A stretch of 64,000 nucleotides of DNA from Argopecten irradians. Its lineage: Eukaryota > Mollusca > Bivalvia > Pectinida > Pectinidae. A model generated the notes under the pieces. It saw only the letters and a list, made by a program, of their open reading frames with translations, was not told where the DNA came from and did not search any database. Below, piece after piece: positions 14,491 through 62,296 of the stretch; positions within the stretch are counted from its first letter, which is position 1, and every line of letters begins with the position of its first letter. The translations under genes and the position numbers were made by a program. Where the stretch lies: positions 10,934,837 to 10,998,836 of the forward strand of contig NC_091147.1 in assembly GCF_041381155.1 (NCBI RefSeq), given 5' to 3'.

Positions 14491-15677
14491 TGCTGATTAT
14501 AAAACTAAACACGCATCCTTCACGTGTCATTTGAAACTATATAGGGATTAAAGTACAAGTGAATTAAGTGTAGTATTCAGAACTACTTAATCTAATTCTG
14601 ACTCAGGAGTAAAAAGGACAAAATATTCTTATGACCGGAAACATGCCCATGTCCTGATGCTAAAAGGGATAATGTGGGGGAGAGTTCCATTGCTCTATTA
14701 CTATCTACACCTTCTTTGTAATCCTGTCAGGTAGCTAACATGATAGTAGAGCTTTTAATCACTGCTAAATGCAATGGAATGTTTGCAAATATCATACAAT
14801 AGTTTACACAAATATTAAAACATAAGAATAAATGTGTATTTTTTAAAGAAGAAAAATTATATGTACAAAGCTAAGTGAAGAATACTTCAGTTAACTGTAT
14901 TGTTGCATATATGATACTTATTATGTATAATGCATGGGACGACTGGTTCTCTTACGATTTCTTCTCTTTTCCGTATGTGTACGGTAAACCAACTTATTTT
15001 CGTGGCGGAGTTATTTTTCCTTTCTGTGGTTTAATTTTGATATTTTAAACTCATTATTTTTTCAAAGTCAAATTGCGTAGTGAATTTGCGATCCGAATTT
15101 CGGTCCTATTCTTTTAGAAATTTCTGCTGAATATCTTTTCCTTATCTATAATATAAAACTTAGTATCATTCATTATGACCCTAATATCGACAATAACAAA
15201 TTAATTTTATGAAGTGTTAGCTGTCAGAACCGGTCGTGATATAGTCCTGTAATCCTGTGTATTCTGATTTAATAGTATGATGTTTTCTTAATTGATGGTA
15301 ATAAAAACCTGAATAATCCAGAAACACATTGGAAATATGCTGGTCCCGATGATATCCAGTGTATCTAGAAATAAAACCTATTGTAAGGTCAAAATATAGG
15401 ATACGTTCATTTGTCATAAAATCCACTGTACAAGAGGGAATTCCAAAAGGATTTGACAGAATAAACAAAAACCTAGCTTAGGTACTAGAATATCACATTG
15501 ATATAATTGTTGCTTTGTTTACGTCATGATCAAGTGATAGTTAATCTAAATGTTATCTTTGTAAATAAAGGTATAGCGTCACTGTATGTGGAATGTAGAG
15601 ATATTGTGTAATAGAGTGATTGTGGTATCTCATATACTACAGGATAGGTGTTCATTATCAGATGAAGACAGACGTTC

Positions 15678-16728
15678 ATTGATATATACTGTACAGGTAT
15701 ACTTAGTTATTGATATATACTGTACAGGTATACTTAGTTATTGATATATACTGTACAGGTATACTTAGTTATTGATATATACTGTACAGGTATACTTAGT
15801 CATTGATATATACTGTACAGGTATACTTAGTTATTGATATATACTGTACAGGTATACTTAGTCATTGATATATACTGTACAGGTATACTTAGTCATTGAT
15901 ATATACTGTACAGGTATACTTAGTTATTGATATATACTGTACAGGTATACTTAGTCATTGATATATACTGTACAGGTATACTTAGTCATTGATATATACT
16001 GTACAGGTATACTTAGTCATTGATATATATACTGTACAGGTATACTTAGTCATTGATATATACTGTACAGGTATACTTAGTCATTGATATATACTGTACA
16101 GGTATACTTAGTCATTGATATATACTGTACAGGTGTACTTAGTCATTGATATATACTTACAGGTATACTTAGTCATTGATATATACTGTACAGGTATACT
16201 TAGTCATTGATATATACTGTACAGGTATACTTAGTCATTGATATATACTGTACAGGTATACTTAGTCATTGATATATACTGTACAGGTATACTTAGTCAT
16301 TGATATATACTGTACAGGTATACTTAGTCATTGATATATACTGTACAGGTATACTTAGTCATTGATATATACTGTACAGGTATACTTAGTCATTGATATA
16401 TACTGTACAGGTGTACTTAGTCATTGATATATACTGTACAGGTATACTTAGTCATTGATATATATACTGTAAAGGTATACGTAGTTATTGATATATACTG
16501 TACAGGTATACTTAGTCATTGATATATACTTACAGGTATACTTAGTCATTGATATATACTGTACAGGTATACTTAGTCATTGATATATACTGTACAGGTA
16601 TACTTTGTCATTGATATACATACATACTGTACAGGTATATGTAGTTATTGATATATACTGTACAGGTTTACTTAGTCATTGATATACATACATACTGTAC
16701 AGGTATATGTAGTTATTGATATACGTAG
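15678..16728. repeat. 31-bp satellite array, about 34 copies
   Basis: The repeated unit runs attgatatatactgtacagg followed by tatacttagtc. Starts at 15678, 15709 and onward confirm a 31-bp period. Most units differ only at a T/C in the last base; a few gain TA, and the right-hand units near 16610-16720 are more diverged (catacatactg). Each unit contains the perfect 8-bp palindrome CTGTACAG and the palindrome GTATAC. The array ends about 290 bp before the first recognised exon of the plus-strand transporter. Confidence 0.95.
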
Positions 16729-44189: not shown

Positions 44190-47100
44190 TTAACACCATC
44201 CAGGAGACCAGAAACCGTTGTAGTTCTTTGGATCGGACACGGCTGTGCCATTCGGATAATTCGCCGGAACCATTTGTTTGTGGTACTCCGCCATCCTCAT
44301 CCGTAATTTCTTTACAACATCGGGTAACTTATCCGAGAGGTTATTACGCTCGTTAGGGTCATCTAATACAAAATACAATATAGATAGTAAGTATAACATG
44401 GTATATGTATATAGCATTGACATTGATGACATAATTATATCAAGTTCGCATAGCTACTTACTTTAGTATACAAATATATCGATAACTAAATAATGATGTT
44501 CTTAATATATACATGTACTTAAAAGATGAATTATTTACTATATAATAGACACTGATAACATCGTCTAAAATAACAGTACTAATTGAATTGGTCTTCTCAA
44601 GAAGTAAAATATGAAAAGATTTGTTGTGATATGGCGCTATTCCCATAAGATAAATTGCATGTGAAATTGTTTAATTGTAACCAAATTCAAGCTAAATGCG
44701 ACTGGGGGAAAATAAATACCATTAGTTTGTTTGTACGTTTAAAGTATCATAAAAATCAACGTCCATTGATTCGGTGTAAAATGAATATTTATCAACTAGG
44801 TCCAAATATAAGCACCCCGGATTTTCCTAGGACAAAATATTTTTCTGTCAGGTTAATCCCAACTGATTAATTGTCGATGAAGATCCATAGTTAGACGCCA
44901 TAAACAAAGGTCTAAAATTATTTTATAATTACGCTCCAAACCCTTTCAACTCATACAGATTTATAATAAAACAATAGAACAATAAATGTTACCAGGCACT
45001 CCACCAGCGGCTGCTACTATGGTCGGACTCCAATCGACAGCGTGAATCATGCTTAAATACACGAAGAATATATTTTGTATGTTATGATTTCAAAATGTCT
45101 TAAACTACAAAGGAATTAAGATGGTTTTTTCCTTATCCCTTATCAGAATCTACTTATTTATGTTTTTTACATTAAATAGTATTTACGGTTATAATTCAAT
45201 GTATTTAGGTTACATTCAGTTATTCATCTTACTACGTGAAGTGTACATATTAATATCAATTTTTCATCAGCACTCTATAGAATGGTCTAATTCACATTTG
45301 TAAATTTGTATTTCTGCACGAAGCTCAACGCAAATGAACACAGTTGTCGCTGATTGTACATAGAGACCTTAATATTTACAAAATGAATCCGTCTGCACGA
45401 GTTAGGAAGCTACACCATCGATTTAAATTCCATTCCATTAAATAGCAATAAGAAATGTTCCTGAAACATTGTTTGAAATAACGTTGGTTTAGAAAAATAC
45501 AAGAATATGAATTCAACATTTAAAGCGTGCCCATGGAACCCTTGCCAATCATTATAACTTACCCGTTGTACGTGTATCCTGTCTTCTCCAAACCGGCCCC
45601 GTGAACGAAAGCTGTCACTCTTGTACCACCCTCGTATATTGTTATCTTAGATCCTCGTAATGGCCAATTGTTGCCATTAGCAGCAGGCCAACCACCATTC
45701 TGAACGTCAAAATATCCACAAGGAAAGGTTAACATACAGAACAACTTGCAACTTTCGGGGAAATATGAATAAAAGAATCATAATATGTAAAACCCGATAG
45801 ATTCTGGGAATGTGGAGATATCTCTCTCAGATGTTTACTATATAACATATCATAAAAATAAATGATAGCATGCTACGTAAACAAGTCATTATCATCTAGA
45901 CGAAGTATTACATTCCAAAAACGACAATGGACGTTGACGTATATGCATAAGGGTATGAAATACATTGTTTTGGTTTTGCAACAATTGGCATATAATTGCT
46001 TCAAATTGATACTTGAAATTGTGTATAGTCTGGCCGTTGTCTCTGCGACCATTTTGTTTAATCTAAATTTCGTCCTATAAGCCATTTTTACACTGTTTAT
46101 AAGTAAAAATCCATGTATCCAGGCTATATATCATAAACTCACATCAGCGGTAAAGATGATCAGCGTGTCCTCGTACATGCCATACACTTTCAGAGCGTCT
46201 GTCACGACACCGATGACGTCATCCATCGCTGTTACCATCCCTACATACAAATGTACATACAACAGTCACAATACGAACATCATTGCTGCCCAATATCACA
46301 TTTGGTCATAGGACTAGGCTATATATTTAGGAGATTTTGACATTATATATTTCGTATAGCTGATATAAAATACGTGGGTATTTTTTCTGCGATTTTAAGT
46401 AAAAACCAGACATTCAATTTTAAAAGTTTCAAATTTACACAAAGATCAACAATTTCTTACCATTTTACCAGATTAAGCAATGATCAAAGCAGTGTCCCGC
46501 AGAATCGCAAAGTATCATCATGTGTTATGAATGATTTATAAAAACAGAAAATAATCATTAGAGATAAATATTTTCTGTAATTGGCACAATTTATTCTTTG
46601 CAAAAACACACTTTAAAAAATATTTGAAATGCTTATTGTTAATTGAATTATTTTATCTAATCCCAATTGTAGATCCCACTATAAGACATTATAATATCAT
46701 TACTAGCCATGCCATCACAATATAAACCCACAACATAACCTAACACAATGCGAGTTTTAATCCCCCATTAATAGGCCAGCTGAGGGTGTGATATAATAAC
46801 TATTCGTCTTTGATTCTCTCACCTGAGAATTTTCTCCTGCCTTCATTATGTATGTGTTTGTACATATTCTCGTACTCAATAGGTACCTAAAAGATCAAAT
46901 ATAAATCTGTGTTATTGGTAACAAGTTGGTGTTTTCTCAGATTTTAAGTGCCTAACGTACCAATGGATACACATGTCACTTTTGCAGCATACCAAACCTG
47001 AATCCTTTTTAATGCCCGCCGAAACAATAAAGTAAACATTTTATATTAGCATTTATAGTGAAACACGTTATAACGACCACGCTTTTAAAGGATGCATGAT

Positions 47101-50100
47101 TATAATGCAACATTTTCCATTCCCACTCAAGGTTCATATAAGGTATCTACATAATTTTATGTATAACGAACTATACTTATAACGAAGTAATTTCGTAAGG
47201 TTCGTTTGTTTTAACTCTGTTTTACTATATAAAATCAGAGCCTCTATATTTACCCACCTGGATCGGAATATGAACAGACTGTAGAGGCATATAAAGGAAA
47301 AATGGTTCACTCTTATTGTGTATTCCGATTAGCTCCGCGGCTCGAGCAGCGAATTCATACTGTAATATAATGAAGCACGGGTTGATGTTCCATGATGGCA
47401 CAACTAAACACAAAAGCAATATAGAACGAGAACCAGGAAAGACAAAATACACATTGTTCCTACAAGCAGTACACCGTCATTACAATAAGGTGTATCTAAA
47501 CAATAAGAGGTGCCATGTATATCTAGATGTTGAAGTACAATCTGACCATAATCAGACGGCAACAACAAAGATTCAGATGTACGTAGTATTCTTATATATA
47601 AGCTAATATAGTTTAAAACTACTGTTTCCATCTAACAATGTTCTAAATGAAACAGGCGTATGATAAAGACTCAACCTTACCGTTGAATAAGTACCTATTC
47701 CATCTTTGTCGGTTGCCGTGTTGTTCCGGAAGTCGTATCCCACTTTATTACCCCTGGCTGAAATAGAATTCTCGCGTTATTTGGTGTTGAAAACAAAGTT
47801 TAACAATGATAATAACGTGCCTCACATAGGAGTCGCTCCATATGAGCATGGTTAACATAAAAGCGAAATCCAATCCATATATTAACGAGAGTCCAAACAT
47901 TTCGTGATTTCAGCTAAAAATGAGCAAAAAACATGTTAGAGGTTTTAAATTACCGTGATCTCATTTACATGGTGTAACCATGATTTAACCATGTCTCAAT
48001 AATTAGAGGGCACCATTTTCGTTATTAAAATACGCGAAAATGTCCCTACCGCGAATGATATCACTTTTACAATACTTGCTATTAACTTTTGTGTAACAAT
48101 CGTGCTGTCCGCCAAGAAACCCATTAATGATATCACTTTTACAATACTTACTATTAACTTTCGTGTAATAATCGTGCTGTCCGCCAAGAAACCCATTTAT
48201 GATATCACTTTTACAATACTTACTATTAACTTTCGTGTAATAATCCTGCTGTCCGCCAAGAAACCCATTAAATGTGTCAAAGCCACGGTAGGTCGGCGTA
48301 CACTCCCATTTACAGAACCCAAGGTGCCATCTACATTGAGAAATTGGCATAAAACACACTGAGTAATCCGTTGTAAATCCTAATAACAGAAATGGCCCCA
48401 AGGACAGTGGCCAAGGTTATATGTTAAAAAGACATACGATATTAAAATATATGTTTATTATCACTTTTATAATTCTAAACGACAATTTACAATAAAAAAG
48501 CCATAGCATTAAACTATTGTGGGTTTGTCATCTCCAATAGCAAAGGTACATACATTATTCCGTATTTTTTACGGTAGCACCGTTATTTTTTTTAAAGGAA
48601 ACGACATAACGTTTACGTTATAATGTGGTAGCTAGTGAAAAAACACATTTCCCATTTAGTTTTATTTTTACACCATACACCATTTCCAAAAAAAAAAAAC
48701 GGATGTTGAAAAGAAAATTTCAAGGTAAATGTACAATGAAGCTGAAGCCATTGTCTGTTTGTTTGCTAAAGATACGTCATATTTATAGCATACAAATCCT
48801 ACAGATCGTGGTTCACTACTTACTTTCCTATCATATGTGTTTTATAGCCCAGTCCTTTGAGATGTTGTGGCAGGAATTTGAGGTTCGTCGGAGCACACAC
48901 CTTCTGGTCAGGCCATATAACCAAATGCTAAAGAGACGAGAGAAAATATTCCTACAGGTGCAATGGCAATATTTAAAGGATATGAAATATATTCTGATCT
49001 GTCGTTGAGAGTAATCTTCCTCGCTAGTATCTGGTTTAATTTTAACCCAATTAAATAAAATCACTAAAACTCTCAATGTTATTTAAAACTTCGAAACTTC
49101 GAAACTTAAAATAAACATTATAAAAGCATATGCAATCTTAAGTATCCAATTAAAAGAAAGAATTATCAAATATTAGAAGTTCTTTTGCTGGAGCTCGTTG
49201 TCTACATCACGCATACATTACCTGAAGTCCGGCTTTGAAAGGATATACCCCTGTCATAAAAGCGTTTCGCGATCTGTTAAATATAGAAAGGACCAGGTAA
49301 CAGTGAATTATTGACATTATTGAAATAATTAATCAGTAGCTAATCACATTTTAGTAATGCTAATCTATATATAAGAGAAACTTGCTTCAAAAAGTTTCAG
49401 ACAGTACTGATTGAACTAAGCAAAATTCCGATCAATTTGATGACTTATATAAATCCCAGAGTTGGTCAAGCATTTTGTACGAACTCTATTTACTGACGAG
49501 GTTATATCTAAACAGAACTTGGTCACATCTTAGGTTCTGTGTACGTATTGAGGCCGACTTCAGACGGTGACGTGTATAGCCATGTGTCGGATACCTTAAT
49601 TGGCCAGCGTAATCAAATAACACTGCTTGGTGCTGTCCACAATGTGCATGTTTGAATTGAAATGCGTCATGATATTTCTGCTACATCTGGTTATAATTTG
49701 ATTTCGTTTGGTTATTGTAACGTCCCATAACGTTTTAGGACATCCCAGGTTAAGGATGTGATATAATGTGTTAATATTCGGGAAAAACCTTGCAACTGAC
49801 AAACATGGAATCCTTATCAGGATGTGGAGGACTATTTGTAACGTTTCCGCCACCAACGTAAAAATATTCGTTAGGAATACTTACGGAGAGCACACGGGCT
49901 GTACATAGGACTGGTTGAGGATGACTCCTTCCTTGGCCAATTTATCAATGTTAGGAGTGGATATGTTTTCATTACGAAACCCGACGTCGTTCCAACCTAT
50001 AAACCGCAAGTTGGTCACATAAATACTTGTTTATTAGACTTCGTGTCAAAATTCATTACACTACAGAGTCAATAGTAACATGTCGCATTTGATATTAGAC

Positions 50101-50791
50101 AGCACAACATAGAACAAATTCAATCGCGAGGTACGACAGTATCACGTAATTGGTAATACTAAATCTATGCAAACGGTAAGTTTACAATATGTGGATTATT
50201 CGTCTACCCCTTCAATTACCAGTGAAGATTTTGTTATTGGACATGACTAAGGTCTGTAACTTCCTGTTATGGACTAATAATCACTGGGTTATATTATCCA
50301 TACGATTCTTCTCTTATATCATTAATCTCATAACGAAAAAATCCTTCTATTGTCCAATATAAACATTCAATTCATACATTTGAACAATAAATGTCGTGAT
50401 CGCTATTATGGTATCATTATACCGCTCTGTATAAGTATTTATAGTTTTTTCACGTGAGTTATTCCCCTTCGACAAATGTTAAATATACAACTACTTGTAT
50501 ATTTTAAATTGATTTTCACATATGTCTGTACACATCGAGTTGTCTGTACTATATATACAACAATGAACAACATGTGTAACACTACATAACCGTGCTTGAT
50601 ACCTGATTTACAACCATTGATCCTATGATTCGTATATATAAATATGTATGTTGACAAACTGTTTTCATTGCTTACTCACCGAAATCGTCTGCTACTATAA
50701 ATAGAATATGTCGTGGATTAGCATGCACATGCGTTGTCTCGTGCACGATAATCACACAAACAATTAAGACCGTCTGTAGGAAGGTCCTCAT
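44190..50791 (-). CDS. Arylsulfatase B-like sulfatase lacking two C-terminal exons
   Basis: Twelve exons on the minus strand, in coding order: 50680-50791, 49885-49996, 49222-49273, 48824-48927, 48224-48330, 47681-47757, 47258-47359, 46823-46886, 46143-46240, 45563-45699, 44993-45051 and 44190-44362. They give 398 residues. A signal peptide ([20 protein letters not shown]) precedes FIVADDFG. The sulfatase signature C73-S-P-S-R is complete, its Cys being the one converted to formylglycine. GKWHLG (K127, H129), QSVH (H218), D276-N277-G-G and RGSK (K294) are also present, so the catalytic set is intact. The plus-strand paralogue has two further exons (90 codons) before the last exon; no trace was found in 44363-44992. 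The exons that remain meet in phase 1, so the shortened message stays in frame. Exon 5's end is triplicated into the intron. It may be active, altered or a young decaying copy. Expected to be secreted or lysosomal. Confidence 0.88.
48056..48271 (-). repeat. 72-bp x3 tandem duplication spanning exon 5 end and donor site
   Basis: Three 72-bp units (boundaries near 48056, 48128, 48200, 48271) each contain the last ~46 bases of sulfatase exon 5 (encoding [13 protein letters not shown]), the 5' splice site and the first ~25 bases of intron. Units are almost identical, so the expansion is recent. The first two units keep a GTAAGT donor (after 48224 and 48152); the third has GCAAGT (after 48080). 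Because 72 is a multiple of three and the frame stays open, use of the later donors would add 24 or 48 residues (each ending KYCKSDII) without changing frame. Confidence 0.92.
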
Positions 50792-51939: not shown

Positions 51940-54900
51940 ATGATGACTTGTTTACAATGCGTTCTGTTTGTTGTTAATGTTGTTCTCGTGCAAATCGCTT
52001 ATGCAACGCCACGACATATAGTCTTCATTGTAGCAGACGACTTCGGTGAGTATATGATTTGATGTATAGGTCGCTAGTTATACGTATATATAGACTACAT
52101 CGTCATTTCTTACACAATAGTGATGCTCTGTTTCCATATGAACTATGTATGACATGGTTATAGCCTTATACAATGCATCAGGTTGCTTCAATATAAGGCT
52201 CAGCAGGACGGACAAAGACGTGTTTTATGATACAATATAACAATACCTATGCAGATCTAGTTTCTGCAATAGGATAGTTATATACCCTTTTATAAACACA
52301 AGCAAGACAACGTTTCCATAAAAGTTATTTATACAGCGTGACTCTTTTCTCTGTTTCTCTATACAACTTATATGGCAGTATTTCCTCTCCTTTAAGTACT
52401 CTACAAACATTCAGTTGTGATATCAATCTTAATAATTTTCATTGATGACAGAAAGTTATCACACACATAGTGTAAATGTACATACTCGACATTCCCTAAA
52501 CCCATTGTCACTTGTAACACAATTAGATATTAAGTAATAGTTCAATATCACTCAACAAAATGTCATTTCATGTTTGCTTCAATGAACCATAAAACGTGCA
52601 GTCTTAATACACGAGTATGATACCACAAGGGCATATATATAAAAGACCTTGTTAATTTATCAATAACGTTGGCTATCAATCGTATTCCCCACATAGCATT
52701 GTAAATTTTTCAAATCATTTAGTATTACAAATACTTTTTTGTGATATAAAATTTCAAGGTTAGTACAAACAAAAAGAATGTTTAAAAGACACATCTCGTC
52801 CGTGAAGGCTTTGAATGTATGTATTACTACCCCTTTTATACTACTTAATCAATAAACAAACTGGATTATTTATAAAGGATACGCGACATCGATCGTTTCA
52901 CTCACGCATGGTTCTGTAAATTGTTAAAACCGACAGCATTAACGATAGCTCAGTGATGGGAATGTTCTTTAGGTCGATCCAGAGAGGGAAATATTTGAAA
53001 GATAGACTCCAACAACTTCCCTTTTAATTGTAAAGTGTAGATATAATGCAAATTATACATGTAATTGCTCATTTCAGATCCTACACACATGTTTGAGGAC
53101 ATGCTGTGGACACATTTACCACATAAATATCATTGACGAATACTTAAGGATAATATTAGAGGACTCTTCATATGTGGAATGAATTATAGTGATATTCTAC
53201 CCGACAACCTTTGTGACCCCGAGGGAAGAATATCCTTATGTTTTATATACATAAATGACAGAGCATTTTCTCGCACCTCGGACAGGGAAATCTCACTTGA
53301 TACCCGGTGCTAGATTTTTCTATCTCGTCCGATCTGTCTGGTACCTTTACGCGAATTTTGGCGGAATTTTACGACATTCATGTAACAGTCCGCGCATGTT
53401 ACGTCAAACTCTCAAACCGGTGACGGCACAAGCGTCAGATAATCAATATTATTAGAAATATATGCATTCAGTCATTTACCATGCATTGTTTGGTTGTTGT
53501 TTTAATCATGAAAACAGTATGTACCGATTGATCATCGTTTTCTCTTTTATATAACCGAACTATAGTTTTATGCGGAATGACTGAAATCGAAGCGCAGATG
53601 AAATGGTTAATCGGCTTTGAACCAGGAGGCCCAAGACGGGATAGTTTTACACTCTGAACGAGTATATAGATGGGTTTTGTTATATCTTAGAGCCGCGAGT
53701 CTCGGGCTAAGATTTTGTAACATCCCAACCTCGGCTAACGCCTCGGTTGGGATTATGTTACAAAATCTTAGTCCTCGACTGAGATAACCCGATCTCGATC
53801 ACTTACAGGTAACAGATTTTATTATTCTCTCATACCTCGATGTTTTATTATTACACTTACAATTATGAGAGCTCTTTATTTTGAGAAGTAATTTCGAGGA
53901 AAAATGCAACTGCAAATTAATTATCAATACATTAATATTTTCTTAGATAATTGAACTCAAGTCTCATCGTTTGCGTTCTTTAAAGTACAACCATCATAGA
54001 TTCTGAACATGATGTTAAAGTTCACCGAGAGTAATTTTGTTTACGTAGTGACGTTACTAAGATATATTGCATGGGCACCCATGTAATACAGTCTCGGGTG
54101 ACATGAGTGTATTGCATCAGATAAACCAGTATTGAAGCGACGTTTAGATACTGTAGTCTTTCATTAATGACCGAATATAAGATAGCAAAACTAGAATTAG
54201 AAAGTGTCACCATACCACTTGATAACTCGAGGAAATATTTGCTAGACAGAATAGCAATCTTACAATATGCATTGTCTTTATTAAGCAGTCAAAGAAAAAT
54301 CTTCTACTGTTCAAATTCTACACTTGCAATTCAATAATGCATGCGCAACCATGACACAAGTTTAAGTTGATGGGGTCAAAAAGCAGTTATGCTACTTTGT
54401 AGACCGACGACCAGGTAAATCATCACCCAAATATTGCGCCAAATTGGAAATATAAATTTTACGGTTATAGAGAGTTCTATTCCACTCAATGCTAAGGAGA
54501 TGTTTATATATACTCATGGATACGTACTGTATCTCTCCATTATCGTTTTGACCTTTTCATTACCATATATACTCAATGGAGGAACAAGTGCATTTGATAA
54601 GGGAAAACAATGTTATAGACTACGAGAAGGGAAGACATATTTGCATTTTTTTGAAAGTAGACACATTCAATAATATTTTTTGTTTAAACAATGTCTATTT
54701 CAGGTTGGAACGACGTTGGATTCCGTAATGAAAACATATCCACACCAAACATTGACAAATTGGCCAAGGAAGGAGTCATACTGGGCCAGTCTTATGTGCA
54801 GCCAGTGTGCTCACCGTAAGTATACACCAGTACGATAGTAGGGAGTGTGATACTGGTGTGTCACGCTGTTGTTACTAATTGTTACTGACTGAAAGGGTAC

Positions 54901-57900
54901 ATAATTTATGTATATAATTCATCCATTCAATATTTTTTCGCGGACATAAGAATATATTCCGGAAAAAACCTGTAATATTTGATAATGTGTTCTATCGATG
55001 CTACAATGTATTCCTCTGTTTGCACTTAGCTATGTTGTGAAGTAAACTATATAAGCATTTTTATCAAACGATATGATACTAGGATATATGTTCTAATTCC
55101 AGATCCCGAAGTGCGTTTATGACTGGGATGTATCCTTTCAAAACCGGCTTACAGGTGAGATTATCGATTACAATGTATACTATACAGATCATCACTGTTT
55201 AAGTCAATTTGATTAATAAGATATCTAGTTTTAAGTGGATCCCAGGTGAAATTGCCAATTATCCTTTCTAGAACATCATCCTTTAATTCATCAATTGCTA
55301 GTTTGGGCGTTGTTCACGCTCACACAGAAGGTGGTATTGACGTTTGTATCACGGAAATAGCTAAAGATGCTGTATGGTTTCCATGGTAATTTGGATGTGT
55401 ACAATGTTTCAAAAATAACTATAATAGTTTAAAATAAGACATAAGGACAACATGCTCTTACTTTTAAGTATTTTATGGTATTTATTCTCTGTATGTCGCA
55501 CTTGATGATATATTCTTACCGAAAATGATCGAAATTACATTGAAATAACAGAAATGATTATCATTCTTAAGAACAAAAATGCAGTGCTATAGCGACCACT
55601 TCTGTATAAAGACCACCTACTTAGTAGCACCTTTTTTCTAGGTTTCCAAATGAAAAATTTCCATATAATTCAACATAGAAAGTTTTCTTAAGTCCTATGG
55701 GACTGAATATTGTCTGAATAAATAGGTTTGACTGTATTTAAACCATTTAAATGTTCACCAGCCATTTTGTTCATGTTTTCAGCATCTGGTGATATGGCCT
55801 GACCAGCAGGTTTGCTCTCCGTTGAACCTAACATTTCTGCCACAACATCTCAAGAAGCTGGGGTATGCAACACATGCAATAGGAAAGTAAGTGTTGAAAA
55901 GAACATTTTTATACTAGACGTCTTACGTAATAAACCAGACTACTTCATCATTAATACCAAATGCTTTTATCTCACATTTAACACGGAAATAAAGGATAGC
56001 ATATTATATGAGTCTTAACTGTATACTCCACATAAAAAGTATAAGCAACATTATAGATTGTACCGGGTTATCTGTGATTGTCAATACAATATCTAAATTG
56101 CTTTGAACTGGTCAAAGTGGGTTGCTGTCAATGAAGGTTTAGCTATCCAGTATATTATAAATAAAACACTGATTTGGTTTCTTTCAATGACAAAGCATAT
56201 TCCAAATATTCATATCGCACTATAGTACAATAGGTAATACATGTACTTTGATTTCCATAAATTACAGTTTGTCTTCCCTTTTCCCTTATGTACGTTTCTG
56301 TAAAAGAACAATAATGTCTCAGAGATGGCAATTTGGTTTCCATAAATGCAAGTGGGAATTGCCTTTATAACATTTAAATACTGTTTTATACCGTAGTAGA
56401 TGGCACCTGCAATTTTGTTTATGACGGTGTGAATGTCGTTTATAATGTTCATATATTGCTATGCCGCAATATATGACATCTAGTTTCCATCAATGAAACT
56501 GCAAATTCAATTTTAATATCCATATATGCTTTTCTGTTGTAAATGACAACAGGGTTTTTGTAAATGAACATGTACACTGCGCCTCCCTTAATACTGTTTA
56601 ATATTTAGCATTACCGTTACAGATGGTACCTGGAGCTTCGTTAGTGGAAGTGTCACTGCCCTTGATAATGTTTTGTTTTTTATATTGACCGTTACAGATG
56701 GCACCTGGGATTCTGTAAATGGCAGTGTACACCCACGGAACGCGGTTTCGACTCCTTCTACGGTTACTACACCAGCCATGAGGACTACTACAAGAAAACA
56801 AATAGTGAGGCTGAAATGATATTTGTGACATATTTAAACAGTTCACTTATTGTAATTTCATTTTATAAATGTTATAAAAGAAAATCATGTTTTATTCTTG
56901 AATGTCTGGTTTCAGTTTCTAGATAAATCCTTAAAAAATAACGTTTCCCGGGTCTATATTGTGCGTTTGTGTATGTATCCATTTTTGTTCCCGAGAGTTT
57001 AAAGTTTCCAATTCTCTTTCATTACATATTCTCTGCCAACAGTTTTCAAATGACACAATTGTTAAAATGAGAAACAACACAAAGCGAGAATAAACCATGT
57101 CAGAATTAGTATAAGTATAGGACAAATATTTCCGACTTTCTTTCTATAGACACTGTATTCACCATCATCATCATATTTGTAGTTCGTGATGGGCATCTGG
57201 GATTTGACTTCAGGGACAACATGGCGACTGATAAAGAAGCAATAGGCACTTACTCTACGGTAAGACAGACCACATGTAAAGATGACAACATCGTATAGCA
57301 AATAATATTCGCGGGAGATAAACCATTCGTATGATCGCGAACATTTCTACTGTGAAATTTATACTCTCTTAGCCATAAATTGTGTCACGATATGATGATA
57401 AAAGACTGTTTTTCTATCTCAGCACATACAATGTAACTTTCTAGCTTGTGCAGTCAGTTTTCACTGATAATAGAAACACATACGGAAAATAAAGGAAAAA
57501 TAGGCAAGTGATATGATAGACAGTTTGAATTGTGAATTGATCTTACCGTTTGGGATCCCATTGACTCGATGTAATTATTTATAATAAGATGGCCTCCATA
57601 TAGAGAGGTGGTGCTTAGACAAGTGTCGCTGTATAAAACCATTCAAATTGCAAAATAAGTCATATCATAATTGTCATTGATGATGTATACAACATTATTT
57701 TTGCTTGTTTAAAAAAAACACTTTTTTGTCTCTCTTTTAGTTTTTATATGCTGATAGAGCTGTGGAATTGATAAATAAACACAAGAAGAGTCAACCATTT
57801 TTCCTTTACCTGCCGCTACAATCCGTTCACGCACCGATTCAGGTATTTTGTCCCTCCTACAGGAAGTGAAAATGAATAATTCAATGTAAGGTTATGTAAG

Positions 57901-60900
57901 ATGAAAAGCTGTTTTTTCACAATGAATATTACGTGTATGGTTATTAACTTATATCTAGTATTATATTCCAACACCTGGCACACCATTACATGACCCCTGA
58001 CTTTTATAAGAGGTGTAATAAAGACAATGAACTTTGTTGGGTATGGAATTTATTTCACACGATATAGTTAGGTTTAAAAGTTACAAACGAATGTCTTTGT
58101 AACTTTTAAAAAATAACTTACGATTGTAAAATAATATGTTCATATCCAACAACCTTAAGCGTGTGTGTCCTGTTTCTTTCACTATTTAACGCTGTTTGAG
58201 GACCAAAGTATAAACTCGTTTTCATTTACATTCGCACTTGACAGGATGTCACATGGAGTGTGATATATAGTAGAAAAACAAAATGCTTCTCAAAATACAA
58301 ATTGTCAATTATTCATTTTAAGATATTGATTACATGTTATGAATTTCTGTATGCCGCTTGTTAACTGAATTTTACAGGTACCTATCGAGTATGAGAATTT
58401 GTACCAAAATATACATAATATAGGACGGAGGAAGTTCTCAGGTGAGTGACAGTTTTGCAAACCAAATTTGGATTAGGTGTATAATGAAAATCTGGTGTGG
58501 TGGTAGAGACATGTTGCCAACACTTGATTGGATCTGAAAAAATGACTTCCTTTATATGTGTGATTAATTATATTCTCATGGCATCCCCCTCCAAAGGCTT
58601 AATTAAAATTTAGTAAAAGAACATTGGAATATGAAGGCGATTGAAATTCAAAGAACAAAATTTATCTTAACGGGCATGTGCACTCTTTTATCTGCATTGT
58701 AACAGTATAATGTGTGTGGGTGAGTGTGTGTGTGTGGCGTGGGGGTGCATTCTAATGATAATATGTTAGCAGCTTTCACAAGCGTACCAACGATATATAA
58801 AATGCTTCAAAGCAAAATACCGTTCTATATGTTACATCAATCAAGTTTTAAAGCGTATACATATGATCCTATTGTATATATATATATAGGAATGGTAACA
58901 GCGATGGATGACGTCATCGGTAACGTAACAGAAGCATTGAAGTCGAATGGCATGTACGAGGACACTCTCATTGTCTTTACATCGGATGTAAGCTTAAATG
59001 TTTATTGTGTGGCATCCAAAGTACTGATTGTAGTATTGTTTATAAACTTAATGACCACATTATGTCAAATTGCAAATAAATATATGTACACTTGTACGGA
59101 CGATAGTACATACTTTTAACATTTATATACCAATGTAGAATATTTAATTAAAGTAATTTATATTACGATTGCTTTGTATGTTCGATTCCTTAGCGTACCT
59201 TATTGAGCTGTACCTACTCCCGTATTGACGAAATTAGTGACAGTATTATCGCGGTTGTGGACAACTCACGTTGTCTATGTATGCTGTGAAATATTTGTTA
59301 ACATTGTTGTATTTTAGAATGGCGGTTGGCCTACCGAGTACGGAAACAATTGGCCATTACGAGGTTCTAAGATAACAATATACGAGGGTGGTACCAGAGT
59401 GACAGCTTTCGTCCACGGGGCCGGTCTGGAGAAGACAGGGTACACATACAATGGGTAAGTTATATCGTGTGTCCTTTGGTAATCATGTGTTAATCTATCC
59501 CAATATTACATACAATATTTTCAATTTCAATCAATTTCATCTTAAACAAAAAACAAATAGATCTGGCAATATTTGGCTTTGCTTCGTCATTTTAACAGTC
59601 GTTTCATGTCTGTGTGATCAAGAAATCCTCCATATGATAGTTTTAAACGTCGCGTGTTTCTTATTTATCCGAGGTAATCCAAATGATTGCTGAAAGTGAA
59701 AAATATTATATAGTTATATCTGAATCATATGATTGTTTATAAATGCGTTACTGTTTTCCCTAACATAGGATGCTTCACGCCGTTGACTGGAGTCCGACGA
59801 TAGTTGCAGCGGCCGGTGGAACAATTTCTAGTAAGTTCCCAATAAAACATGCACATGCAAGTTATGTAAGTTTAATCAAAGCTTTGATGGATCCTCTTAA
59901 AATGTTATATTTTTAGGCGTGTTATATATTACAAGTACAATTAGAGTTAGATGTTTTTTGTTGATAGAGGATGTATAGATTAAAAAGATAAATGTATGGA
60001 TTTAGTAATACTAACTTGTCGGATGTTCACGAAAAAACACACTGTCAGTAAAGGGTGGCTTTTTCTATTAAATATGTCGAGCAACTGAATGCCATATCTT
60101 AATAAGAAAAAACTCACTATTTATAAATACACAACGATTTTTAACCAAGCCAAAAATCCAAAGTTATGTAAGACATTTTAAGTCGTTTGAATTCGATAGG
60201 TTTGTGGACGTGGCTTTTTCGATTATGTACAATGAAGACCTGTATATTGGCATTCTTTCTATATAATACAATTACTTTTTCTTTTTTCGTTTGCCCTAGT
60301 TTCACAGCAACACCTAATTTAATCAAAATGCAGTTACAAAAATAGTGATAATAATTACTGGTTAACAAAATGGTGTCAATGGAGTAATAGTTTACTCCAT
60401 TTTGGGTTTGAATCTTACAAATTATATTGAATGTTTGCTTCTGTAGATACAACCATTGACGGAATCAACCAATGGGATAACATCCGGACCGGAGAATCTT
60501 CCAGCCGGACAGAGTTTATTTACAACCTGGACGATTTAGCACCCTATCAGACAGGCCACGCTGCCATTCGGTAAGCCTTGGTGCAGTGTGTGTAAATTAC
60601 AATATGATTAGGTCATAGTCGTGTTTTGTCATTTCGGTTTTTTGTTGTTTTTTTCATCCACGTGCGGATGGCGAAGTTTAGGTCTTAGGTCTCGAAATTG
60701 AAAAACACATTAACAAACACAAGCAATTTTAGGAACTAAGCAAGAGTTAGGTAACAGACAAAGTTATGCTTCCTACCATCTTTAAATATGTTAAATCTGA
60801 AAATGAATTATATCGATCGTATATCGATAACAATAAGTTCATAACTTGTTTCAGTTTGAACGTCTCAAACTCTTGAGTTATATTCTGGTTTAGTTTTTAT

Positions 60901-62296
60901 TTTCTTGTACAACTTGCTGACTGGTATGTTATTAAAACAACAACTATGGCATATCATATGGTTGAATGACTATCAATTTGTTTCATACATTGTACATACT
61001 CAAGCTTTTATTGGGAAGCAATCAAGGACGCGATTGTGAACAGATATTAATGGCACAATGTAAGGTTTTTGCTGTTTGTATTTTAACACAGATAAAATCA
61101 TATCGATTGATACTGGTGCTGTAGCATACTGTTTGGGTCAAAACGAAAGATGTGTCTAAGTCATGTCAAATTATATCTTATGGGAAAATAAAAAGAAATA
61201 CTCAGTACTATTTGTCTACGACAATTGTTTCTCCGCCGATCATTTGTTTCTATTGAAGATAATACTACCCGTACAATCACTATTTTAAACGTCAGCAAAC
61301 GGTCTTCCAGCTTTATTGAATATTGTACAGTTGAGTCCATTAAAGATTCGGTCCAAACACCAAAGCATATTGTGCATAATTAAAATAAAGCATTGGTTTT
61401 TATTTTATAAACATTTATGTGAAAATGAAACAATACAAGTTAACCAGATTATATAATACAAGTTAACCAGATTATATATAGGTAGAGCTCTGTTGATCCT
61501 TTCGTAAAATTATTTCATTGTTGGGTTATATGTCCATATTGCTGTACAACTGTCCTAGTAAGTTAATGGTCCATAACATTTCACATTTTACTAACAGTAT
61601 GGGAGATTATAAGCTGATAGTGGGCTACCCTGGTTTGTACCCGGGCTGGTACCCGCCTCCCACATACACAGACGATAACTATATCAAGGAGATCCCGTAC
61701 GATGGTAGTCAGGACGACAAAATACAGCTGTTCAACCTCAGAGGTATATATCCTTTAATTCTATTTTGAGTTTCAATAATCCAAATAACCTTTATGAATG
61801 AAAAAGATTATTATTGCTTCTTTTTTTTTACTCTTTTTTTTATCATACTGGGATATGATGATTAGTTACTAGCTTATCTCCGATCTGTGTGTGTTTACCA
61901 TGTAGAATCAATAATGCATGATCATTTTATGGGTCTGGGGTATATCATGCATATGTATTATATGTATCGCGATACGTAAGCGTGTAAAGTGAGGCGAACA
62001 AAAATCAAAACAAAGACGGGTTTCATAAGATTGCGTAGAAAAAACTACACATTTAAAATCCTATTGCTCATTTATCTTTCATACTGGTGACAAAAGTCAT
62101 ACATGTATCATTTTCTGTATCAGATGATCCGAACGAATATAATGACATTTCGGATAAGTTCCCTGATGTTGTAAAGAAATTGCGGGCGAGAATGGCGGAG
62201 TATCACAAACAAATGGTTCCGGCGAATTACCCGAATGCTACATCCGCGGCCAACCCAAAGGACTACAACGGATTTTGGACTCCTGGGTGGTGCTGA
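51940..62296 (+). CDS. Arylsulfatase B-like sulfatase (full length)
   Basis: Fourteen exons: 51940-52045, 54704-54815, 55103-55154, 55783-55886, 56698-56804, 57183-57259, 57741-57842, 58378-58441, 58890-58987, 59318-59454, 59769-59830, 60447-60570, 61598-61743 and 62124-62296; all phases agree and the product is 487 residues. A signal peptide of about 22 residues is followed by [14 protein letters not shown] (metal-binding Asp pair). C71-S-P-S-R75 is the type I sulfatase motif whose Cys becomes formylglycine. K125-W-H127 (GKWHLG), H216 (QSVHAPIQ), D274-N275-G-G and K292 (RGSK) complete the active site. The C-terminal part (HAAIRMGDYKLIVGYPG) matches the arylsulfatase B/GalNAc-4-sulfatase group. 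The family removes sulfate esters from glycans, in lysosomes or extracellularly; the substrate here is unknown. For exon 6 the acceptor at 57182 was chosen because it aligns with the paralogue. Intron 1 contains a foldback and intron 4 a degenerate array. AATAAA at 62765. Confidence 0.95.
53671..53795. repeat. Foldback element in sulfatase intron 1
   Basis: 53707-53730 (ctaagattttgtaacat then cccaacc) pairs with 53745-53771 apart from a 2-base bulge. Smaller palindromes flank it (gcgagtctcg, and gggttttgttatatctta against gagataaccc). It is non-coding and resembles a small palindromic MITE. Confidence 0.7.
55582..55737. mobile_element. Possible short Tigger-like MITE in sulfatase intron 3
   Basis: Starts cagtgctatagcgaccactt and ends aaataggtttgactgta, which reads tacagtcaaacctattt on the other strand. 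Both ends open with CAGT, as in pogo/Tigger-type ends, but the inverted match beyond that is weak. Confidence 0.35.
56095..56760 (+). repeat. Degenerate ~75-bp array repeating the acceptor and start of sulfatase exon 5
   Basis: Related segments occur near 56170, 56245, 56321, 56398, 56475, 56549, 56622 and finally at the true exon start, 56698. The clearest are accgttacagatggtacctg (56614) and accgtagtagatggcacctg (56391), against accgttacagatggcacctg at the real acceptor. Each continues with a diverged form of ttctgtaaatggcagtgtac and then ttnataatgtt. Upstream copies are increasingly degraded. The copy at 56622 still has an AG acceptor. Confidence 0.75.
58073..58110. repeat. 15-bp stem hairpin in sulfatase intron 7
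   Basis: tttaaaagttacaaa and tttgtaacttttaaa are exact reverse complements around an 8-base loop. Confidence 0.8.
61434..61480. repeat. 23-bp direct duplication
   Basis: atacaagttaaccagattat plus ata occurs twice in a row upstream of sulfatase exon 13. Confidence 0.8.

Follow-up and report, generated by a model that had tools for sequence, protein, structure and literature searches.

An arylsulfatase-B-like gene of Argopecten irradians, lying on the reverse strand of the 64,000-nucleotide stretch of DNA analysed here (the window), carries three near-identical 72-bp units across the junction of its exon 5 and intron 5, each with its own splice donor. The explanation that we favour, and hold to be probable, is that of a young and nearly neutral minisatellite lying across a splice junction, in a probably impaired sulfatase copy, with the first donor supplying the main product and the second donor being used in some transcripts. 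Comparable arrays occur at the junctions of other sulfatase exons in the same genome, and this wider class of natural splice-site arrays is a more interesting lead than the sulfatase triplet itself.

The host gene

The contig that contains the window (C14) is 39 Mb long and belongs to an assembly of 846 Mb in 1508 contigs. The homology model places the gene at 44190..50791 on the reverse strand, with 12 exons, GT/AG boundaries and an open frame encoding 398 amino acids when exon 5 ends at donor 1. The predicted protein matches the Pfam family Sulfatase (PF00884; E 5.2e-54, residues 28-338) and its best solved relative is human N-acetylgalactosamine-4-sulfatase (1fsu; E 6.9e-102); the sulfatase identity proposed in the initial annotation is borne out, as is its numbering of the repeated exon as exon 5. 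The six catalytic motifs (DD, CxPSR, GKWHLG, H, DN and K) are all present in the model, as VADDFGWND, CSPSR, GKWHLG, LQSVH, ADNGG and RGSK.

Relative to the neighbouring paralogue, dN/dS is 0.129 over 364 codons. In a comparison over 290 codons, for which the third gene is a composite (C14, 36.00 Mb), 13 residues are unique to the focal branch and 18 to the paralogue, and four of the 13 fall in the repeated part of exon 5. The low dN/dS, the open frame and the lack of any faster change suggest that the gene was constrained for most of its history, and it may still be.

Three copies of the exon 5 junction

TRF reports a period of 72, with 3.0 copies and 95% matches, at 48054-48271. Unit 1 (48198..48269), unit 2 (48126..48197) and unit 3 (48054..48125), all 72 bp long and on the reverse strand, each hold the end of exon 5, a donor and the start of the intron; the donors are GTAAGT, GTAAGT and GCAAGT, with their first intron bases at 48223, 48151 and 48079 respectively. 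Three such units had been described initially, with the same donor series at the same positions, and both parts of that description stand, the former on TRF and the comparison of units and the latter on the exon model. Unit 1 begins 57 nt (19 codons) after the tryptophan codon of GKWHLG, within the same exon. With head-to-tail, near-identical units inside the range of about 10-100 bp (72 bp x 3.0, 95% matches), the array has the form of a minisatellite.

Units 1 and 2 differ at 2 positions per 72 bp, units 2 and 3 at 3, and units 1 and 3 at 5. At one point units 2 and 3 both read CAC and unit 1 reads CAG; a further three changes are found in unit 3, including that of its donor from GT to GC. 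Two successive tandem duplications would fit this pattern, given the CAC shared by units 2 and 3. A query comprising all three units found one place in the 846 Mb assembly, and no second sequence version of exon 5 was found there, in searches that scored the best candidates only.

In the exon model, the last base of exon 5 is 48224, 48152 or 48080, depending on the donor. When ended by donor 1 the exon occupies 48224..48330 on the reverse strand (107 nt), and it measures 179 nt with donor 2 and 251 nt with donor 3; exon 6 (47681..47757, reverse strand) is joined in the same phase whichever of the three is used. Frame and phase are therefore kept throughout, with 0, 24 or 48 extra residues, exactly as the initial annotation held. 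Among simulated duplications of 40-120 bp that span the donor, 1351 of 4515 (30%) were frame-neutral and open up to the second donor, and frame neutrality is thus no sign of design.

The further claim, that the gene could make three protein lengths, survives in part: all three forms are open and in phase, but the longest is unlikely to be made. A GC donor that lacks G at -1 should be a poor one. The best predicted duplex with the 5' end of U1 is -7.5 kcal/mol for donors 1 and 2 and -3.3 kcal/mol for donor 3 (AUA/GCAAGU, the slash marking the exon end), compared with -5.0 to -13.0 kcal/mol for the remaining ten donors of the gene, so that donor 3 ranks last among all 13. It is because of this weak pairing with U1 that we consider the +48 form unlikely, although by a simple count of matches to the consensus donor 3 scores 7/11, no worse than, and equal to, six other donors of the gene. 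Over the 11 nt tested, donors 1 and 2 do not differ, and their units agree at 70 of 72 bases; the real contest is probably between these two.

One other splicing product was considered. If donor 1 were spliced to an ACAG in unit 2, a pairing noticed when the units were read by eye, 47 nt would be lost and the frame shifted; a mini-intron between units, being of 47 nt and out of frame, was set aside.

Deletion of two C-terminal exons

Residues 323-434 of 1fsu have no counterpart in the window gene, which has an incomplete C-terminal region, two conserved exons being missing between its exons 11 and 12. This downstream deletion had escaped the initial annotation, as had the recurrence of junction arrays in the genome, described below. 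Both exons are present in the head-to-head paralogue and in contig C539 of the same assembly (L033/L062 541-1199); at the deletion point in intron 11 (44616..44617, reverse strand), C539 is longer by approximately 657 bp, which hold the two exons (124 + 146 nt, 90 codons). The lost exons, totalling 270 nt, are entered and left in phase 1, so that the frame survives their loss, and as a result of the deletion every isoform is short of about 90 sulfatase C-terminal residues.

C539 matches the 3' end of the window gene and carries a second version of its exons 11 and 12, both identical to those of the window (0/59 and 0/173 differences). The stretch of 253 bases that leads from the deletion to exon 12 contains no substitution and one 1-base gap; from the deletion to the stop codon there are 0 substitutions in 426 bases, against 55 in 649 on the other side (introns 10-11, exon 11 included). 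Judged from this alignment, the difference is a clean deletion in the window copy relative to C539, which is either the other haplotype or a separate copy. Because two conserved exons are deleted, a normal enzyme is improbable even for the +0 form, and constraint on a gene copy without two exons of the sulfatase C-terminal region has probably been relaxed. The lesson of the triplet is to check the surrounding gene first, as two other exons are missing here.

Within the 51,736 bases of C539 no earlier exons were found, the contig turning into high-copy repeat; with no exons before exon 11, it is not a source from which the ancestral number of units can be read. This repeat occupies at least 2.5 kb upstream of exon 11, from approximately position 1972 of the contig, with no exon 10 found beyond it, and matches at least ten other places at 94-99% identity along most of its extent.

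Paralogues and the age of the array

The nearest paralogue is a sulfatase gene arranged head-to-head with the first, at 52003..62296 on the forward strand (the start of exon 1 being approximate), which has the two exons and a single exon 5 junction. Here too the exon ends in AAATA before the donor. The paralogue comparison covers 9 of 14 exon 5 regions, the alignments of the other five stopping before the exon end, and in none of the nine, each read over 210 nt, was a second copy of the end of exon 5 found. On this comparison the triplication is specific to the window gene among the paralogues read. By eye, the intron lies at the same position in 8 of the 9, L077 being the one that differs; the idea that the read-through segment SKYCKSD is a normal part of the exon was rejected on this account. 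In one of the nine (L071), an array of 31 bp x 2.2 is found in the intron, starting 15 nt past the match.

That the triplication was recent, as first proposed, can be retained in the form 'probably young': the units differ at only 2-5 of 72 positions, and the two versions of introns 10-11 differ at 55/649, though at 0/426 beyond the deletion. The array could be recent enough for individuals to differ in it, a suggestion for which the comparison with C539 is uneven (55/649 on one side and 0/426 on the other).

Positions 61565-61762 of the window, an exon region of the head-to-head paralogue, are 95% identical to C539 (L033 605-802), where the neighbouring exon regions are 73% and 83% identical, and this suggests gene conversion.

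Junction arrays elsewhere in the genome

Arrays with a period of at least 30 are found in 31 of the 76 loci examined, some of which overlap. The loci were merged into 40 intervals, amounting to 220,664 bp around sulfatase exons and containing 178 edges of 89 exons; 89 of 91 clusters were kept, since two copies of an array on C15 (1.466 Mb) had at first been counted as exons and were dropped. Arrays with a period of at least 20 cover 8.8% of these 220,664 bp. They straddle 10 of the 178 exon edges, against 5.35 expected under random placement (P 0.028 by edges, 0.124 by exons). With the focal exon left out the count is 9 of 176 against 5.32 expected (P 0.07 by edges, 0.245 by exons), and with a degenerate C15 copy left out as well the P values are 0.21 and 0.35. 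We claim no enrichment of arrays at exon edges from this random-placement test of 178 edges; junctions are struck at roughly the chance rate and are not clearly purged.

When the sequences of the eight straddled exons were read, the splice site was inside the repeat unit in five, the focal one included, and the other three represented an in-exon duplication, a repeat ending at the stop codon and an array that is intronic only. On C1 at 49.946 Mb (L016 1627-1775), 49 bp x 3 carry the donor of a sulfatase-family exon, and translation that continues past donor 1 reaches a stop some 10 codons on. On C15 at 1.466 Mb (L013 423-1554, 1640-2267) both edges of one exon are affected, with 66 bp x 13.6 on the donor side and 58 bp x 10.6 on the acceptor side (TRF); read-through past donor 1 stops immediately, and only one of nine acceptor copies, the exon-adjacent one, is open. 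A degenerate version of this array is found on C15 at 1.451 Mb. The largest, on C8 at 33.578 Mb (L031 1679-3207), consists of 34 bp x ~45 (TRF), with 37 recognisable acceptors, and includes the acceptor and the start of an exon that we take to be N-acetylglucosamine-6-sulfatase-like; 3 of the 37 acceptors are in frame and open, namely the exon-adjacent one and two further upstream.

If the genes that bear these arrays work, we infer from three of the loci (C1, C15 at 1.466 Mb and C8) that splicing there mostly takes the exon-adjacent site. It is possible, and we propose it tentatively, that splice-junction minisatellites, with 3 to ~45 copies beside one exon, are a recurrent class that is tolerated as splicing picks the exon-adjacent copy. 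If true, they would amount to graded experiments, set up by nature, on the spliceosome's choice among near-identical sites, and the sulfatase triplet would be a frame-neutral case in which that choice also changes the protein.

Origin of the array and use of its donors

According to the explanation that we favour, a local tandem duplication, and then a second one, would have multiplied a stretch of 72 bp that by chance included the boundary between exon 5 and intron 5, giving a short minisatellite of a kind common in the genome. The event would have been nearly neutral, because the intron-side copies lie where splicing can remove them. Donor 1 would yield the main product, a protein left unchanged by the duplication; donor 2, whose sequence is the same, would be used in some transcripts and add 24 residues; and donor 3 would be essentially unused. 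Preference for the exon-adjacent site in the other arrays implies that the sulfatase would mainly use donor 1, although the two non-adjacent C8 acceptors that also give an open product count against such a rule. For a gene copy without its two C-terminal exons, relaxed constraint is probable and no form is likely to be a normal enzyme; against relaxation stand the otherwise intact frame and the dN/dS of 0.129 over 364 codons.

The triplet could instead be a working alternative-splicing switch, in which donors 1 and 2, and weakly donor 3, compete to place 0, 24 or 48 extra residues in a loop after GKWHLG. The three open forms in a common phase and the near-identity of the first two donors and their units are what such a switch would need, and in the alignment the extra residues would sit at a place where the segment of human arylsulfatase B is itself slightly longer. 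Nevertheless, donor 3 forms a weak duplex with U1, the host gene copy lacks two conserved exons, and ~30% of random duplications at this place would be frame-neutral anyway, and we think a switch unlikely.

When duplicated donors compete in cis in vertebrates, the intron-proximal copy is often favoured, and this would point to donor 2. Were the same preference to hold here, donor 2, as the strong donor nearest the acceptor, would have taken over and mainly the +24 form would be made. The equal U1 pairing of donors 1 and 2 (-7.5 kcal/mol each) would then leave the decision to position, but in the other arrays checked most sites that are not exon-adjacent break the frame or stop translation, and the persistence of such genes would suggest the opposite rule; we regard a takeover by donor 2 as improbable.

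An assembly artefact, with one or two units real and a third misassembled, is highly improbable: exon 5 was found at only one place in the assembly by the best-candidate searches, as might suit an error, but units 1 and 3 each have differences of their own and unit 2 is unlike both, which argues against a simple duplication artefact, and similar arrays of up to ~45 copies exist elsewhere in the assembly.

Comparison with known systems

Most work on duplicated splice sites has used constructed reporters. In a genome where donor or acceptor arrays occur naturally next to single exons, the choice of site could be read straight from RNA. As for the sulfatase triplet, its import is modest: it illustrates that a junction can be duplicated in tandem and the frame be spared by chance. 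Searches of one literature library on junction duplications, minisatellites, splice-site competition, scallop genomes and sulfatases listed no report of splice-junction minisatellites.

Among the papers that come near, PMC1877881 deals with competing donors in reporters. In a potato RdRp gene, the segment duplicated in tandem spanned the boundary between an intron and an exon, and a new intron arose, supported by 106 RNA reads (PMC4974935). As in the sulfatase, that duplication crosses the boundary, carries the parental splice signals into the second copy and leaves copies that differ at few sites; it was, however, the 3' splice side that was duplicated there, with the gain of an intron, whereas the sulfatase, a case known from DNA, has its 5' splice side in triplicate and no evident new intron. 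The same paper (PMC4974935) describes the Rogers model, of intron gain by duplication of exon segments containing AGGT, and the experiment of Hellsten et al. These share with the sulfatase a tandem duplication as the source of splice sites, but the duplicated donor of the sulfatase is a real junction, and reading the units by eye revealed no second acceptor whose phase could be used. PMC2423196 centres on tandem donors 3-6 nt apart, and although alternative donors of one exon change the length of the product in both cases, those of the sulfatase are 72 nt apart and were made by duplication.

Further repeats in sulfatase exons and in the window

Two repeats met in the survey lie in or beside sulfatase coding sequence. 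A 55-bp tandem duplication with 100% matches in a sulfatase exon on C4 at 5.4325 Mb (L041 1666-1777) takes in the CTPTR site and leads into a stop, and on the same contig at 5.441 Mb (L054) an 87-bp repeat of ~6 copies (98%) has a unit that ends at the sulfatase stop codon. The window itself holds another long array, a 31-bp repeat in 32 copies at 15676-16686.
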